A program made the position numbers and the translations under genes. A DNA stretch of 64,000 bases. Origin: Bryoerythrophyllum caledonicum (taxonomy: Eukaryota; Streptophyta; Bryopsida; Pottiales; Pottiaceae). Below the pieces are notes generated by a model. That model was not told the origin of the DNA. It saw nothing but the letters and a program-made list of their open reading frames with translations, and did not search any database. This document shows positions 1-29,511 of the stretch, piece after piece. The stretch is taken from positions 13,084,501 to 13,148,500 of the forward strand of contig OZ020517.1 in the NCBI GenBank assembly GCA_963971425.1, in the 5' to 3' direction. Each line of letters starts with the position of its first letter. Within the stretch, counting starts at the first letter, position 1.

Positions 1-2318
1 GGCCAACAACTCTCGCGGAGGCAACAGACCCGCCGGTAGCTGCTTCTCCAATCTCCACCGGACCCGACTGACTCACCGTTGCCTCCTCCCTCGACACTTC
101 CCGAGAATAACCAGCAGTCCTCTCGCCAGGACTCTTTTTGGACTCAGAGATAACCACTACATCCCCAATAACCACACCAGTGCCGTCCACCGGCCCATCC
201 TGCCCTTCCACGCTACCATCACCCTCGTCGGTTTCCCCACTATCATCCTCCTCCTCAACCTCCTCCTCATCCTCCTCCTCACTGCCAAAATCTCCTGCAA
301 AAACATCAAAAGCAATCCACTCCAATTCAGACTCCTCTCCCGCTCCTTCTTCTCTCGGCCAGGTCACCCTACTACAGTCCAAAAACCACTCCATATGCTA
401 TTCCAAATAGAGAAAACAACAATGCTAACCTTCCATGTCTTGTCCATCGGACCACCCTCAAGGACCTCATTCTGTGCTACCTAAAGTGAGTTGCAACGAC
501 TCTCGATAAAGACCAACCTCTCATCAGTTTGTACGCCTTCAAAAGGTCTTCCAGCGGCAGCTCGCTCTCCCTTTGCAGTGCACTCAGCTCCTCTTTCCTT
601 TCCTCTTCGGTTATCAATGCTTCATCTGCTTCTAGTGTCCCTTCATCGTCCTCCTGAGGATGCCAACGTAGCGTGCATCAGACTCAAAATTCCTATCACA
701 GCACTGCCGACACTTGGGACTCAATGGTCACCAATCTCGTTCCAGCCCTAAAGCAGCCGGCCGTGCCTTTCAACAGTCGTGAAGAGCAAATAAAGAAATC
801 AACCCATCACTTACTTGCTCTGCCTCGTCCTCTAGCATGAAATCGCCATCACCAACCCCCTCGATCTCCATTCTCACGGCTCCTTCGAAGTCATCGCCTC
901 CGCCACCATCTACTGCTTCCGACACAGTTGCCGGCCCTCCTCCATCAGCGCCGGACGCATCCTTCCCCACTAGGGCCAATACCGGAACGCTCCGGAGCTC
1001 ATGTGCAGGTGCCGTATCCGCAAGATTTTCCGCCAACATTGTCGAATACCTGCGCCAAGTAACCTCACATGAATCCAATCGCGCACTTCCACCATCCCCA
1101 CGATCCCCTTGCAAACCAAAAACGTCCCCATCTTCTTACGATGTCTCACCACTGCTACCGCTGCTTGGGCGTTGCCACTCCTGGTTTCAGGTGGCGTGCG
1201 TCTATCGTCTACCCTACTATGCTGTGCCCAACTGTGCCCAAACCACTGCACCAACATGATCTCCGAAGCACCTGACGGACACTCAACTAACTAAACATCC
1301 GAATCCACATGTAGCACTCTTACCTCTCTGTCTGCCCCAACAGGAAGTCCAGGTGCTTGTCTAGCGCCTTCTTCTTCCTTTCCTCTACAATTAATTGCTG
1401 CTTGTAAGATACCTGCCCAAGTGAAAATGAGACCACAATTCAGCAAAACAAAATCCTCACCAATCGCAACGTCGATCAATCCAACGCTGTGCTACACTAT
1501 TCTGTGGAAACAGTGCTCACGGACGAATCGGCTCATACTTAACGCAGTCATGGCCTTACGAATGACGCAATCGCCTCTCAATATACGCCAAAAAGACCCG
1601 ACATGTAGGTTACAGATCCTTACCAGCTTGTCAACTTTTAGCCAGAACTTCTTCACGTCTTTCGCAATGTTACTCGCCACTCTCCGCATCCGCTGCTCCT
1701 CCTCCTGGTCGACCACCACCGTTCCAATGCTCTCATTCATACATGGACCCATTGGTATGTGTGCCTCCGGCATCACATGCAATCCACACAAATGTTGCAC
1801 ATTCATCAACACTCAACCGGCAAGGTAAACGAAAGGAGCACCCCACCTTCAGTCGCCGGTTCTCTCTCGCTACCACGTCCAGCTTACTTCTGTTCACACG
1901 CAATGCCACCTTCTTCGCCTGGCTCAATTTCCATTTCCGCTCCCTCTCAAAATCCTGCCACAACCGACATCTTCATAAAGCCCACTTCACCCCATGCCAG
2001 ACCGTCATCCCCACATCACATACGACATCCTCATGTTGGACAAGCTTAGACACGAAAGCACACCAGACTGAACCACCCCACCAGGCCATGAAATGCCATC
2101 CTAAACCACACAATCTCCCAATAACGGAGATTAAACACACTACTCAAACCGCAAACAAAACCGTAACAATCATCCCCGAGGAAGTGAACGTCAATGCCTC
2201 CCACCTTGGCCAGCCACGCCATTTCCTCCAGCACGAAATCCCAGTGAGTCTTAGGTCGCGCCGGCTCCTTGCTCTTCGGCAGCCCCTTCTTGTCTCGGTT
2301 TGCCTCCAAGTACTGCAT
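1..2318 (-). CDS. PIE1: PIE1/SWR1-type chromatin-remodelling ATPase, N-terminal part (runs off left edge)
   Basis: This is the 5' part of the plant SWR1-complex Swi2/Snf2 ATPase, which exchanges H2A for H2A.Z in nucleosomes. Seven phase-consistent exons read 2318-2205, 1954-1847, 1704-1624, 1412-1324, 1049-815, 653-518 and 294 to beyond 1, giving about 352 residues. The HSA domain that binds actin-related proteins is spread over exons 1-4: RPKTHWDFVLEEMAWLAK, then DFERERKWKLSQAKKVALR, then RRVASNIAKDVKKFW, then KKKALDKHLDFLLGQTER. Next come YSTMLAENL, then ITEEERKEELSALQ with LPLEDLLKAY, and a long Glu/Asp tract in the last visible exon; all are PIE1 hallmarks. The helicase and SANT parts lie outside the window. 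The ATG at 2318 gives a short N-terminus as in Arabidopsis, but a CAG just inside it could be a splice acceptor, so the true start may lie upstream. Identity is seen directly; function is known from the family. Confidence 0.93.
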
Positions 2319-2784
2319 ACACGACAGGCAAATGGAAGCCAGCGCGTCAGCCCTATCCCACCACTCAACCGAACAATGCATCCTGATGCACCTCCGCCAC
2401 CACGACCATTCGCTTCACTCGAAATGGTTCTACAGCCCCTCGTCAAACACGCTCGTTCCTCACTTCCAACCATAACCACCTCAGACGCACACACACCCTA
2501 CAAGTTGCGCAATCCGCCAGCCGAGCAATTCCATCCAAAATCTCGACCGAGAATGGGCTCATGAGAAGCCGACGTATCCAGATCATCGTCAGCACCATCT
2601 GAGGCAATTTCACGACGCACGCAAGACATATACAAGCACACAATCCACGTCTCTGAGCTAACGCAGCTTCCACACAGAAGGGCGCCGCTTCCTAGCATCA
2701 CTTATTATACACATTGACAAACCTCCACTCTCTACGTGCGGGGCCAGTGATACTGCAATAGGAGCTCATGGAAAAGATTTGCAC

Positions 2785-4326
2785 CTCGTGCTTCAGAAGA
2801 ACATCGTCGGCTCGAGCGACCACCGCGTCATCGCCCTGGCGCTTCTGGAGGGCCAGCAGCCGACGACGAGATGCCAACGTACCCTGCGCAGCAACCCCGG
2901 CCTCCCGCTCCTCACCCACACTACCCCCGTCCGCCTTCTCGCGGCGGCACTTGCCAGCCACTCTCTTCTCCGCGACCGACTTCGCCCCGTCCCTCCTCCC
3001 GACGGCCTCCGCCCCTGCATCTTTCCTCTCGCGATGGGACTTTCCGCTCGCTCTCTTCTCGACCGCGGAGTGCAACCCTTCTTCCATCCTGTCCCGCGCC
3101 TGCGCCGCTGCATCGCTTTCCGCGCAATCCACCCTGTCCTCAGTTGCAACCTGCCTCTCAGCCTTCTTCTCAACCAAGCCCTCTCTCCTCTCGCGATGGT
3201 GCTTTCCACTCGCTTCCCTCTCGGCAACACCCGCGGCCTCCTCCGCCCCAGCGCCTGCATTTCCCTCCAAGACTCCCTGCCCGGAGCCCGCCTGCCCTTC
3301 GCTAATCGCCACAGTGCCCTGAGCGACGTCGCCCGCCTCCGCTCGCTGGGCTTCCTGCCGCGCAATCTGGCCCCTCGTCTTCTGAGAGCCAGGGGACGCG
3401 GAGCCAAACGCATTGCTCCGGCCATGCTTTGAGCCTCCATTGCTGAACAGACCCACGATCCGCACCCGCACCGGCACTCTGTCGTGGGCAGCCTTCAAGG
3501 GCAGGGCCGCCTCCTCCCCGGGAGTTGGATCCCTCGCAGCCTCCCGGGCGTCAGCTGCCCCGGACCTGCCAACGGAGCTTCTTGTCGCCGGTACCTTCTT
3601 GCTCTCCACATCGCCAAGCGCCTTCTCGCCCTGCTTGGGCGCGCCCACGACCTTCCTGGGCCTCCCCCTGCCTGCATGTGGCGCCTTCGCAGCCTCGACA
3701 ACCTCGGGCACAATCACAGGCACGGGCACAGCCTCTACGCCCACATCCTTACCCTCGTGCGGGGCAACCTCCTGGCTAGTGGGCTCGGGCTTCGGTCGGT
3801 TTCGCCTCCCATAGCATTTCAGTTGCTGTGACGAAGTCTGTTGCATCTCTTACCTTCTTTTAACATTCTCGCTTCATGCACTCCCAATGCACAAAACGAG
3901 CGTCCTCTCGCCCTAATCAAAACACTCCCCTGCCAATCCCCCTACTGCCCGCACCAAACTTCACACCACGCCCCTGTCCAATCAACAACGGCAACCACAC
4001 GAGCTCTCCAACCCACACCTAGGGTTTCACCCGTTCTTGATCAAACCAAACCCTAGCAACGGACCTCCAACCTGCTGCCACACGACCGAGACCGACAATT
4101 CCCGCGCACGCGAGCTCCTGAGCATGCGGAGCGGGTCCGACGAAGAAGCCCTAAGCTCATTCCTGGAAGGAAACTTGAAAGTAGAGCGAGAATCCGAACG
4201 GAAGCCGAGGAGTGCAATCCTTCGACGCTCTTCAGCGAGAGCTTGTTCCTCTTCTTCTTCGGTGCTCACCTCGTCTGGAGCGAGAGACGACGATGAGCGT
4301 GCGCTTTGTTTCGTTTCCGCCAGCAT
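2785..4326 (-). CDS. Putative upstream exons, acidic then Lys/Arg/Glu-rich (PIE1 N-terminal extension or separate gene)
   Basis: Two long minus-strand open stretches precede PIE1. The first starts with ATG at 4326 and reads MLAETKQ..., with an acidic run followed by EERRRIALLG and FKF; a possible donor lies near 4070. The second is open from 3846 to at least 2785, where GAG is followed by GTGCAA. It starts near CYGRRNRPKPEP, has an AT-hook-like GRGRPRK at about residue 60, and carries three spaced copies of a motif like EKRASGKSHRERK. High GC content and a biased, highly charged composition support coding. The pairing of EERRR...FKF with a later GRRNR motif recalls the N-terminus of plant EAF1, a NuA4 scaffold, but only weakly. 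No promoter-like gap separates this block from PIE1, so it may be the same transcript. Exons between 2785 and 2318 could not be settled. Confidence 0.45.
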
Positions 4327-6104: not shown

Positions 6105-6232
6105 GAGTCTATCCTTGGGTCTACACTACTAATCCTTTGTCCGGTGGGCATCAATTTACTGGTGGAACAAATAGGCAAACTATCACGCCTGCTTCCACTA
6201 GAGACTAGAGTTGTTGTTCTTCTTCTTCTTCC
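6105..6232 (+). mobile_element. Short retroposon, copy 1 (old)
   Basis: Diverged copy of the (TTC)n-tailed micro-retroposon. It shares CTACTAATCC, then TCCGGTGGGCATC, a TGGTGGAACAAA block and a CACGCCTGCTTCC block with the better copies, and ends in four TTC repeats near 6219-6232. No target duplication could be seen, as expected for an old insertion. It extends about 15 bp further 5' than the short copies. Confidence 0.65.
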
Positions 6233-6989
6233 CAATAAATTGACAGGGCAAATATGGTACAACTAAATTTAATTTTAGCATAGTGGTATTATATGATTTG
6301 AAAATGCTATAGTTTTTTACTTTAGAAGATGATTTTTACTAGAGAGTACAACTACACCAAATACTGATTATAGTGTGGATGCATTAGTAATGTCAGTGAA
6401 AAGTGATGTGGACCACATTAAATTTGGTTTTGAAACACAATTACTGTGGACACATATCAACATGAGTCACGCCGACCACTCCCACCTCACCGCCACTCAC
6501 TATCAAATATCTTGCACTCCCCTCCAACGGCCGCGACTTCACCACTGCTTATTGCCACCTCTCCATCAATCCACATTAATTTTGTGTCAACAATTTTAAA
6601 TCATTCCACACTATTTTATAAGGAACACTATTGCAAACAAAATTAATAAATATCAACTACTACTCAATGACATTCAAGCACTCGAATGGAACTTAGACCC
6701 CCTCATTGTCATCACCGAGGGTGCTAGAGCCACTACCTTTATTCCCTCAATGACAACCCTTGAAAAAACATTCAAAATTCTCATGACTTCAATCAAGATC
6801 ACCTTTACAAATATTAACACTATTGCAATCAATTATGCTCTGTCCATACTCCTGCACAAAAAAAACAAAAAAAAACAACCAACTCATCTCAGTCACGCTC
6901 GACCCCCCACAAAACCTACTAGACATCTTATCACATTAACCTCTATGGCGTCTTTGGCTCTCTGTTCTTGGTTACCTGTTACGTGGTAC

Positions 6990-7125
6990 ATAGTGTCTAT
7001 CCTCGAGAGGGGGAAGTAGTTCCATACTACTAACCCATGTCCACCGGACATGGATTTAGTGGTGGTACGAACAAACACTTTATTCACGCCGGCCCCCTTT
7101 GAAGAGTGGAGTTTTTTTTTTCTTC
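6990..7125 (+). mobile_element. Short retroposon, copy 2
   Basis: Well-preserved copy. It starts near GTCTATCCTCGAG, contains the hairpin CCATGTCCACCGGACATGG (8-bp arms, 3-nt loop), then TTAGTGGTGG, ACACTTTATTCACGCCGG, a C-run and a T/TTC-rich tail. Together with copy 1 it shows that longer forms exist, so the shorter copies are probably 5'-truncated. Confidence 0.7.
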
Positions 7126-7344
7126 TTTATAAGGAATATGATTTGATGTGGATTGAGAATTGAGGTGGACCACTGAAATTTGTATTTACTAGAATTAGTG
7201 TAGGCATTTTGAAATAGTCTAATACAAAGTACACTAAGTGAACGGTGTATTCATACTACCGTACGAAGAAGTCACTTTCGACAGCTCTCTATTGAAAGAA
7301 TTATTTCCCTTTGACGCAGTGATTTGGACACAATGGATATCACC

Positions 7345-16226: not shown

Positions 16227-16239
16227 TTTGGGTTATATG

Positions 16240-16317
16240 TGGACATTGGTTTAATGGTAGAACGAACAAACACTTTATTCACTCCGGGCCCCTTCAGTGA
16301 GGACCGGAGTTCTTCTT
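16240..16317 (+). mobile_element. Short retroposon, copy 3 (5'-truncated, perfect 13-bp TSD)
   Basis: A 78-bp body begins inside the hairpin region (TGGACATTGG), continues with AACGAACAAACACTTTATTC and a CCGGGCCCC block, and ends TTCTTCTT. It is bounded by a perfect 13-bp direct repeat, TTTGGGTTATATG, at 16227-16239 and 16318-16330. Variable 5' truncation, a simple 3' tail and a target duplication of this length are the signature of LINE-type target-primed insertion. Confidence 0.85.
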
Positions 16318-16330
16318 TTTGGGTTATATG

Positions 16331-16899: not shown

Positions 16900-17994
16900 G
16901 AAGTTCAATCCAAAACTCAATTTTGCTCACACTGGTTGGAACAAAGTTAAAAATTTGTCCACTACCCTTAGCAGCTATAATAGTTGCAATGCGCTTAGGC
17001 ATGCTTCTATACAAGTTCTTCCACTCAATAGAAGTAATTGAAGCCCAACAATCCTCAACACACTCCCACAATTCTAACATTCCTTTGGGATGTCTCTCCT
17101 AATAGTTCAATGGACGGTTTAAAGTTACCCACTAGTGTTCGATCCGATTCAAGTCTGGAGATTGTGCCGGCCACTTCAAAAAGAGTGAATTCTTGCAAAT
17201 TCAGCCAACGGCGCACACTCTTGGATGTATGTTTTGGGTCATTATCCTGTTGAAAAATCAAATTGGCAAGATCTTGAATTGAATGCATGCAATGTATGAA
17301 TTAATTCTCGCTCTAAAATTTCTCTATACATGTACTGATCCATTCTTCCCTCAATCCTATACATCATACCAGGGCCACTTTGAGTCATGCAACCCGACAT
17401 CATCACTCCCCCACCTCCAAACCTGACAGTTTGTTGCACCATTCCAACACTTCTACTTTGCCCATGACGAAACCAACACCAACTACGACCATCAGAGCAA
17501 AATTGGTTGATTTTTGTTTCATCAGAGAATACTACACGATCCCAATCATCATTAGTCCAATGGCAATGACATCTAGCAAATTCTAATCGTCCCTTAATCT
17601 AAAGAAGTGTGAGCTCTGGTTTCTTTTGCTTTACTTTACATTTCAAACCTGCTTTTCGTAACACTCTCTTCACAACACTATCACTCATACCAACATGAAC
17701 CTCGTCTCTCAAGTAATTTCCAACTTTGTGTGCAGTTTCTAAGCCACCTACAGTGATCTCTCTCACACAAGTCCTACGATCAGGTGCACTATACACCTGC
17801 AGCCTGCCACCAAAAGTGCAATTCACATCACTCAACTCACTCAAATGTTGCTTACCAAATTGTGCAACCCAACTTTGGAATATTTGTAAGTCTCTAGCAA
17901 CATTTCTAGTACTTTCACCCCTCTTCAACTTCTCTAAAGTAGCTTCTTCTATCTGCTTTCTATGAGCAAGAGAGAGAGACGTCAATGAAACCAT
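16900..17994 (-). pseudogene. Tc1-like (DD34E) transposase, decayed
   Basis: DNA-transposon transposase read right to left. It starts with ATG at 17994 (MVSLTSLSLAHRKQ), followed by a paired helix-turn-helix region, KLKRGESTRNVARDL and GGLETAHKVGNYLRDEVHVGMS. The catalytic domain shows FSDETKINQF (first Asp), IFQQDNDPKHTS (second Asp) and SPDLNRIEH (Glu), spaced as DD34E if one frame change is discounted, and ends in KRIATIIAAKGSG. It is inactive: a TAG stop near 17600, a frame change near 17285, another near 17170, and two stops after the catalytic Glu (near 17135 and 17100). Terminal inverted repeats were not found with confidence. The ends seem lost, so it could not be mobilised even in trans. 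Confidence 0.9.
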
Positions 17995-18408
17995 TTTGCT
18001 CAATTTGCATACATGATGTGCACTAAATAGGGACACAATTATAAATGTGATGACCAAGAACATGCCCATCCAAAAAATCAGACCCAGAAAACCACTTGTG
18101 TATGTCAAATTTGTAGCGTTCATTGCGTAATCCAAGTGTGAGCATAACTAAGTTTTAGAACTAATTTACTTTAATCTATATCTTTCTCAAATTATTTTGC
18201 ATTGCTAGACTTGTAATTTGGTAGCCACATCATTTACTTGCATGTATACCTGAGCTGTCAACTGATTTGGCATTAAATGCAATAAATTATAAAATATGAA
18301 TGGGTAAAGGTTAACTCAGCTATTTTGTACTCAGTTTTTGCAATCTCTGTATAAGTTGATGTGGTTGAACCTCCTAAAACATAATTGTAGAAGTACCATC
18401 TCCGACAA

Positions 18409-25696: not shown

Positions 25697-26624
25697 CCCT
25701 CTACTGCCCATAAGTCCCAGAAATGGGACGCTAGAGGGGCTAAAACCCAAATTTCATGAAATCCATGAGGAATTAGGCTTCCAGATACTAAGTTCACATT
25801 TGCGCACACATTACATGAACACTCTCAAGCAATCAAATCATAATTTGGATTTACAGAACTCTTGGAAAAGCTAGAAATACAACACAAAATACATCAAATA
25901 CAGAAGAAGAAGAACGCCAGTACCCGAAGGGGGCCGGCGTGGATAAAGTGTCCGTTCATTCCACCACTAAGTCCATGCCCACCGGGCATGGGTTAGTAGT
26001 AAGTACATCAAATACACTAAAATATAGTGAATACAGTGAACAGAGTGAATAGCATGCCACATACCATGTTGTATTTCACACACTTGCACATTGATTTTGG
26101 TCTTAAATTTTGATTGAACTTCGTCTTTAAGACATTCTTCATTGTTATGTGATTGTTGACCTCTCTCCTCCCATACGGAACTTCCATTTTGATTCGTATA
26201 AAGTTGGAACATTTTTGTATACAATCAAGTAGAAAAAAACAAAAAAATCACCAATAATTGTGTATAAATATTTTCTTCACATATGACATGTCAATGCAAA
26301 GCTATCAACCTAGTCCACATGTGAACCACTCTAATTCAATGTAAAATAGTGCTTGCAAGAATCTATTGATGGTTACAGTAGTACACCCTTCAAATTCCAC
26401 GATTTTCACTACCAATATACGGTAACTTTAAACACTATAATCTATTCCATCAACGGATGAATGTTGTGTAAAATTTTCCCAAAGTTCAGGTCATGGGTTA
26501 AGTTCAATTTTGTAAAGTCAGACATCAATACGAGGCATTGTATTTCCATCAAATCTAGTTGAAAGAAAAAAATCAGCAGACATCTTGGTTTTTCCATAAA
26601 CATCCCTAGACGGTAAAGGGTTAA
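25693..26624 (+). mobile_element. TTAA-flanked element D1, with a retroposon inside
   Basis: Starts TTAACCCTCTACTGCCC, followed by an AAGTCCCAGAAATGGGAC region, and ends CGGTAAAGGGTTAA at 26621-26624. It is paralogous along its length to D2 (28709-29511). The difference of about 115 bp near 25900-26016 is the short retroposon plus its 13-bp duplication. Confidence 0.8.
25903..26003 (-). mobile_element. Short retroposon, copy 4 (perfect 13-bp TSD, empty site in D2)
   Basis: A 101-bp body on the minus strand: CTACTAACCC, the hairpin CCATGCCCGGTGGGCATGG, TTAGTGGTGGAATGAACG, CACGCCGGCCCCCTTCGGG, then four TTC repeats. It is flanked by the exact 13-bp repeat TACATCAAATACA at 25890-25902 and 26004-26016. 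The paralogous element D2 carries the same host sequence without the insertion, near 28908-28925. It is the youngest copy in the window. Confidence 0.92.
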
Positions 26625-28708: not shown

Positions 28709-29511
28709 TTGATCCTTTGCCGCCCAGGAAGCCTGAAATGGGACTCTGGAGGTGCTAAAACACAATCTGCATGAAATCCATGATACCAAGTTTGGGCTTC
28801 GAGAGACCAGGTTCCGATTTGTGCACACATTACATGAACACTCTCCAACAATCATATCATGATTTGGATTTATAGAACTCTTGGAAAAGCTAGGATTACA
28901 ACACAAAATACATCAAATGCACAAAAATACATTGAATACCATGCCACATACTATGTTGTATTTCACACACATGCACATCGAATTTGTTCTTAAATTTTGA
29001 GTAAACTTTGTCTTTAAGACATTCTTCATTTATTTGTGATTGTTGATCTCTCTCCTCACATACAAAACTTCTATTTAGATTTGTATAAAGTTGAAACATT
29101 TTTGTATTCAATCAAGTAGAAAAAAACAAAAAAATCACCAATAATTGTTTGTAAGTAATTCCTTCACATATGATATGTCAATGCAAAGCTATCAACTTAG
29201 TGCACATGTGAACCGCTCTAATTCAAAGTAAAAAATTCTTGCAAGAATCTATTGATGGTTAAAGTAGTACACCCTCCAAAATCCACATCTTTCTCTACCA
29301 ATATATGGTAACTTTAAACACTATAATCTATTCCATCAATGGTTGGATGCTATGCAAAATTTCCCCAAAGTTCAGGTCATCAGTTAGGTTCAATTTTGCA
29401 AGGTTAGATATCAATATGAGGCATTGTATTTCCATCAAATCTGACTGAAAGAAAAAAAATCAACAGAAATCTTGGTTTCTCCATAAACATATCTAGGTGG
29501 TAGAAGGTTAA
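28709..29511 (+). mobile_element. TTAA-type element D2 (paralogue of D1 without the retroposon)
   Basis: Starts TTGATCCTTTGCCGCCC and ends GGTGGTAGAAGGTTAA (TTAA 29508-29511). Shares most of its length with D1, including AGAACTCTTGGAAAAGCTAG and ACTTTAAACACTATAATC. Serves as the empty-site reference for retroposon copy 4. Confidence 0.78.

Follow-up and report, generated by a model that had tools for sequence, protein, structure and literature searches.

The short insertion W1 in the genome of the moss Bryoerythrophyllum caledonicum (101 bp; positions 25903–26003 on the minus strand of the window, i.e., the whole analysed stretch of 64,000 nucleotides) derives from a LINE longer than 9 kb, of which 5' truncation has left just the 3' end, and is not a SINE. 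It almost certainly goes back to an autonomous non-LTR retrotransposon with a folded 3' UTR and was dead on arrival, having presumably been generated by target-primed reverse transcription that ended early, which is an ordinary mechanism. The copies of this LINE share a common 3' end and have differing 5' ends, they carry target site duplications (TSDs), long parent copies hold the coding sequence, and the RNA of the 3' end displays paired changes. The micro-copies themselves constitute ordinary LINE debris, and it is the parent LINE that is the point of interest, since it looks unusual for a land plant.

The insertion W1 and its empty site

W1 shares 99% identity with the 3' end of another genomic copy (L009), which continues from there into LINE sequence. 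It is bounded by a perfect 13-bp TSD, TACATCAAATACA, one copy of which (25890–25902) adjoins the (TTC)n tail and the other (26004–26016) the truncated 5' end. The tail, (TTC)4 (25903–25914, minus strand), is directly preceded by the terminal hairpin H3 (25915–25939, minus strand), which was delineated by the fold of W1 and by pair counts from other copies, while a long hairpin, H2 (25962–26000, minus strand), was delineated by folding and pair counts. The arms of H2 correspond to the blocks CTACTAACCC and TTAGTGGTGG of the original prediction, and the hairpin described there is the tip of H2. Its overall observation is confirmed: the coordinates, the hairpin and the TTC tail of W1 are all present in the window, as are two perfect 13-bp TSDs, that of W1 and a second one, TTTGGGTTATATG (16227–16239 and 16318–16330).

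The predicted preservation of a pre-insertion site was likewise borne out. The flanks of W1, joined over one TSD, align to a paralogous sequence at 28732–29302 on the plus strand with 85% identity over 590 columns, and a single TACATCAAATGCA is present at the junction (approximately 28909–28921). A second match across the empty junction was obtained at another locus (L056; 86% over 569 columns). W1 has thus been inserted cleanly into one member of a dispersed repeat. This host repeat is a separate entity, which occupies 25717–26416 and 28732–29302 of the window and occurs at L056 as well.

Further copies within the window

Three other copies were recognised. W2 (6626–7125, plus strand), a truncated copy of 500 bp, stems from the same kind of LINE and comprises the last part of ORF2 together with the 3' end. 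It is flanked by the TSD TTTATAAGGAA at 6615–6625 and 7126–7136, and its translation is identical to the C-terminus of ORF2 in 64 of 95 columns. W3 (16240–16317, plus strand), a truncated copy of 78 bp with the TSD TTTGGGTTATATG, belongs to a sister subfamily, and W4 (approximately 6126–6233, plus strand) is an old, diverged copy with a mixed TTG/TTC tail, at which a TSD was looked for and none was found. As the copies measure 78 bp, 101 bp and 500 bp, besides the old fragment, there is no fixed 101-bp unit.

The motif ACACTTTATTCACGCCGG, allowing up to three mismatches, occurs at three places in the window (mean 0.06 in shuffles, none of 100 reaching three). On the contrary, the block CTACTAACCC, which had been described as common to all four copies, is exact in only two of them: W4 deviates at one position and W3 is truncated past it. 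With one mismatch it occurs at four places in the window, which is at chance level (mean 2.28; 19 of 100 shuffles reach four). The TTC tail ascribed to all copies is present as (TTC)4 in W1, whereas that of W2 consists mostly of T with little TTC.

Coding parts of the parent LINE

To read the parent LINE, stretches of about 9.5 kb were taken at 14 of the loci that the genome search had yielded. Upstream of the W1-like body, homology in most fetched copies continues through a further hairpin, CCCTCGAAAGGGGG, and then enters a reading frame, that of ORF2, with an end like ...HAMSILLHKRKLENNQPLPD. The same 3' end as that of W1 thus terminates long, ORF2-bearing copies, and the anticipated joining of the 5' extension to a LINE ORF2 and the anticipated autonomous LINE were both found. 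This LINE had been termed unseen, which holds for the full parent, lying outside the window, but not for the end of ORF2, which is carried by W2.

ORF1 is represented by an open frame of 568 aa, counted from stop to stop (L061), which gave no match to Pfam. In L058, the frame of ORF2 stays open from an ATG for 2346 aa and closes 145 nt upstream of the H2 tip. The Pfam domains of ORF2 follow in the order Exo_endo_phos_2 (4.2e-6; 27.1 bits, just under the cut-off of 27.4), RVT_1 (1.3e-28), PCIF1_WW (2.9e-9; 37.2 bits against a cut-off of 31.1) and RNase_H (2.3e-12). Hence, reverse transcriptase and endonuclease are united in one frame by RVT_1 and Exo_endo_phos_2, as is characteristic of LINEs. 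Another hallmark of LINEs is present in addition, namely copies that are truncated at the 5' end, carry TSDs and share their 3' tail, and no long terminal repeats were noticed in the long copies. A plasmid collection gave no match, and a search for relatives in viral contigs gave 10 pattern matches, none of which was confirmed.

Copy number, copy lengths and 5' ends

A 24-base signature of the LINE 3' end occurs at 3,797 places in the genome, compared to none for the reversed control. In the genome search, the best 40 of 2,123 candidates were scored, and the 39 copies besides W1 were fetched together with flanks of about 400 bp at either end. Among these, 13 end 101–146 nt upstream of the tail and the other 26 continue further, 25 of them extending collinearly for at least 470 nt. 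In the remaining one (L046) the match breaks at 346 nt, yet the wider stretch (L067) revealed a copy of 6.5 kb with internal deletions. When 15 of the 26 long copies, picked by hand rather than at random and including one with a run of N (L070), were followed outwards, 12 spanned at least 6.4 kb, while three measured 1.3, 0.6 and 0.6 kb (one of the latter being L057). As the genome search prefers matches spanning its query, still shorter copies are under-counted.

Both truncation points and TSDs were tabulated, as the original prediction had proposed, for copies with a 5' end and enough 3' flank (L062b was dropped due to its short flank). Exact TSDs of 9–14 bp are present in 20 of 32 copies with the 5' end in hand; since L046, an internally deleted long copy, lies outside this set, 20 of 31 is the proper count, and the other 11 of the 31 have no exact TSD of at least 9 bp. 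By comparison, only 0.3% of 992 mismatched flank pairs share at least 9 bp, and exact TSDs of at least 10 bp are found in 18 copies but in none of the mismatched pairs. For three long copies, the 5' end and TSDs were looked for and not found.

The 5' starts of 21 copies, i.e., the 20 with a TSD and one with a TSD of 7 bp (L012), are spread between -360 and 59 in the numbering of the 134-nt 3' end, with four of them at position 9 and seven at positions 8–12. Groups of starts at 8–12, 32–37 and 57–59 fall on the edges of helices and the loop of H2; this is only a hint, given that the clustering of the 21 starts is not significant (p = 0.06). As a separate observation, a second ultrashort copy at L062:9422–9497 is nested immediately after another copy's TTC tail, with an apparent 10-bp duplication, TGCAAAGGTA.

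RNA structure of the 3' end

The predicted layout of the 3' end consists of a closing helix around the short hairpin H1 and the long hairpin H2, followed by H3 and (UUC)n. Minimum-energy folds of four copies yielded z-scores of -5.7, -2.9, -4.5 and -4.3, with W2 differing in layout outside H2. For pair counts, 39 copies were aligned by sequence only, leaving out truncated and some near-identical rows, and the structure counted was the minimum-energy fold of one of these copies, a choice that favours the structure somewhat. Across the 39 copies, 89.5% of cells are paired in this structure, compared to 36–47% when it is slid along the alignment. Changes on both sides occur in 17 pairs (shuffled mean 11.0; 3 of 500 shuffles reach 17) and in 42 cells (22.3 in shuffles; none of 500), while further pair types amount to 47 against 41.9 in shuffles (21 of 500).

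The clearest covarying pair of H2 reads U-A in 21, C-G in 12 and U-G in 4 copies, and that of the closing helix U-A in 26, C-G in 6 and U-G in 5. On the other hand, one H3 pair (G-C in 10, U-A in 7) is broken in 21 of the 39 rows, another pair of the closing helix is broken in 17 of 39, and G-U exceeds A-C at Watson-Crick positions only modestly (107 to 81). RNAalifold, applied to 49 rows including truncated ones, returned no covariation and no more than 6 pairs. Neither double changes nor covariation were displayed by an alternative outer helix of H1, which was rejected. Overall, the folded 3' end is moderately supported as a real RNA structure: a conserved 3' stem-loop, as in LINEs of the stringent type, is indicated by the folds and the pair counts, against which stands the RNAalifold result on the wider set.

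Proposed mechanism of insertion and competing explanations

In the proposed process, the ORF2 protein would bind the folded 3' end of the LINE RNA and its AP endonuclease would nick the target, whereupon cDNA synthesis would be primed on the tail, i.e., by target-primed reverse transcription. The reverse transcriptase would often halt inside the folded region, giving rise to inserts of about 80–190 bp, and, once past the fold, would usually continue for kilobases. A recurrently truncated LINE 3' end, one of the two options of the original prediction, is borne out by the 5' extension into ORF2, the variable 5' ends and the commonness of exact TSDs; recognition of the hairpin by the reverse transcriptase, the second half of this option, is an inference.

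The other option, a very short SINE living as a parasite of the LINE and having the 3' end in common with it, would account for the size, the TSDs, the simple tail and the many very short copies, and the accumulation of starts around position 9 might be taken for the fixed 5' end of such an element. This clustering is, however, not significant, the starts scatter from -360 to 59 instead of being fixed, the copy body is LINE sequence throughout, and searches of the window for a tRNA, 7SL or 5S head revealed no tRNA and no Rfam match at gathering score. A SINE is thus unsupported and very improbable. Even less credible is an origin from fragments of a DNA transposon or an inverted-repeat element (MITE), to which the strong internal hairpin might point: the TTC tail is directional, the 5' ends differ, the 5' extension enters ORF2 of a parent that bears a reverse transcriptase, and terminal inverted repeats were not apparent in the copies inspected by eye. 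SINE, MITE and a separate 101-bp unit were rejected on the grounds of the differing 5' ends and the 5' extension. A further alternative to arrest on the full-length RNA is an origin of the short copies from short RNAs, such as cleaved or separately transcribed 3' UTR fragments. It draws on the two modes of copy length, with 13 of 39 copies below 150 nt and, of the 15 others followed, none below about 600 nt and 12 of at least 6.4 kb, as well as on the starts within 8–12; arrest at a stable fold, however, predicts the same lengths, and an origin from short RNAs is judged unlikely.

The PCIF1-type domain and the 2A-like motif

PCIF1_WW denotes the family of the cap m6Am methyltransferase. The domain was matched in all seven LINE copies searched, lying at 1852–3138 on the minus strand in L058. 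In a genome-wide search for the family, the best 150 of 2,614 candidate places were scored and all 150 exceeded the Pfam cut-off, while the same search of 14 control genomes gave no match. At 33 of these 150 places the open frame measures exactly 3,087 aa and the score is equal, which is suggestive of recent spread, and at one of them the 551 bases taken at the predicted position of the 3' end were found to contain this same end, TTC tail included. Moreover, at least 8 of the 20 PCIF1 places listed on contig 1 are followed by the 3' signature 2.06–2.15 kb downstream on the same strand, compared to 0.04 expected, when the first 88 signature places with zero mismatches are considered.

The site that we take to correspond to the catalytic NPPF of PCIF1, placed by eye rather than by alignment to PCIF1, reads HPHN in seven of eight copies, L070 being the one in which the motif was not found, and HPHN is invariant across the seven rows of the domain alignment (A3). 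At a catalytic site, such a sequence would suggest binding more than catalysis. Since a seven-copy profile, when searched against the PDB, returned RNase H1 only and no PCIF1 chain, the PCIF1 assignment derives exclusively from Pfam. A literature search by title and start of abstract gave no paper on a PCIF1-type domain carried by a LINE, and the domain may perhaps represent an undescribed kind of LINE cargo.

A 2A-like motif, D[VI]ExNPGP, is located 5' of ORF2 in 10 of 15 long loci (L058, L061, L062, L064, L065, L066, L067, L068, L069 and L071), compared to none on the reversed strands, and is preceded by a long Asn/Gln-coding simple repeat in several copies. It is absent from the short copies L057, L059 and L060, from L070 with its run of N, and from L063, for which no such reason applies.

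Relation to known LINEs

By pairwise PDB scores rather than a tree, the reverse transcriptase matches three R2-named chains best (1.5e-31 to 1.4e-28), followed by 8c8j (1.5e-19), which is presumably L1, and by 8gh6 (7e-18) and 8ibw (1e-16), both of which we take to be silkworm R2; these scores do not decide between the clades. In UnaL2 of eel, ZfL2-1 and ZfL2-2 of zebrafish, SART1 of silkworm and R2, a 3' structure is recognised by the LINE's own protein, and some tails of the stringent type consist of short repeats, e.g., TGTAA in UnaL2 (PMC4176376, PMC3747384, as far as their available text extends). The moss LINE has a tail that works in this manner, a 3' stem-loop followed by short repeats with putative recognition, but it differs in its larger multibranch 3' structure, the (TTC)n tail, the giant ORF2 and the PCIF1-type domain.

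Among plant elements, compensatory changes in a 3' hairpin are shared with the L1-clade LINE1-1_ZM group of maize and sorghum, the partner of ZmSINE2 and ZmSINE3 (PMC3747384). In the accessible text of the same source, 224 of 233 L1 families of flowering plants have an (A)n end, and the other 9 lack a terminal repeat. From these, including the LINE1-1_ZM group, the moss LINE is set apart by published description, not by sequence: instead of the poly(A) 3' end given for flowering-plant L1 in the available portions of PMC9033089 and PMC3747384, the copies inspected carry TTC tails. According to the same portions, the plant RTE clade possesses one ORF and a (GTT)n or (TTG)n tail, as opposed to two long open frames and TTC tails here. 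In its tail, the moss LINE hence matches neither plant L1 nor RTE, and the TTC repeat argues against both, as described in the excerpts of these papers.

Two types of endonuclease are carried by the RandI/Dualen LINEs. These green-algal elements, compared by description only, resemble the moss LINE in having simple tails other than poly(A) within the green lineage, namely (ATT)n and (CTATTT)n (available text of PMC3747384). The D[V/I]ExNPGP motif, in turn, is reminiscent of non-LTR retrotransposons of Trypanosoma cruzi and sea urchin, which carry 2A-like sequences according to the accessible part of PMC4981915; in the moss, a putative skip site of this kind occurs in a plant genome and, in several copies, behind the Asn/Gln-coding repeat. 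Titles and abstract starts in the literature searched included no paper on a PCIF1-bearing or (TTC)n-tailed plant LINE.

Implications

As stated in the available text of PMC9033089, all LINEs from 23 plant genomes belong to either L1 or RTE. Against this background, it is conceivable, albeit doubtful in its full extent, that the parent belongs to a LINE lineage outside L1 and RTE that has expanded to thousands of copies in one land plant, which captured a PCIF1-type domain between reverse transcriptase and RNase H, features a 2A-like skip site, and whose 3' UTR fold acts as both licence and road-block for the reverse transcriptase, yielding inserts of mostly either about 100 bp or several kb. 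A conceivable role of the PCIF1-type domain is to retain the capped 5' end during engagement of the 3' end of the LINE RNA, thereby joining both ends of the template. The copies of this LINE constitute a natural record of the stop sites of a reverse transcriptase on a folded template.

Surroundings in the window

Four of six scanned frames of the window encode recognisable domains, i.e., DUF247 (1.1e-43), NB-ARC with a Roq1-type winged helix, RRM and an XB3/XBAT31 RING, and this set of domains is indicative of a land plant, while the sixth scanned frame gave no domain match. In the fifth, at 17602–18147 on the minus strand, a weak match to the transposase domain HTH_Tnp_Tc3_2 was obtained (19.8 bits, below the cut-off of 31.5). 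Furthermore, positions 1–4000 exhibit a GC content of 0.56 with a strong skew of C over G (-0.36), and long frames on both strands overlap near 2700–3850.
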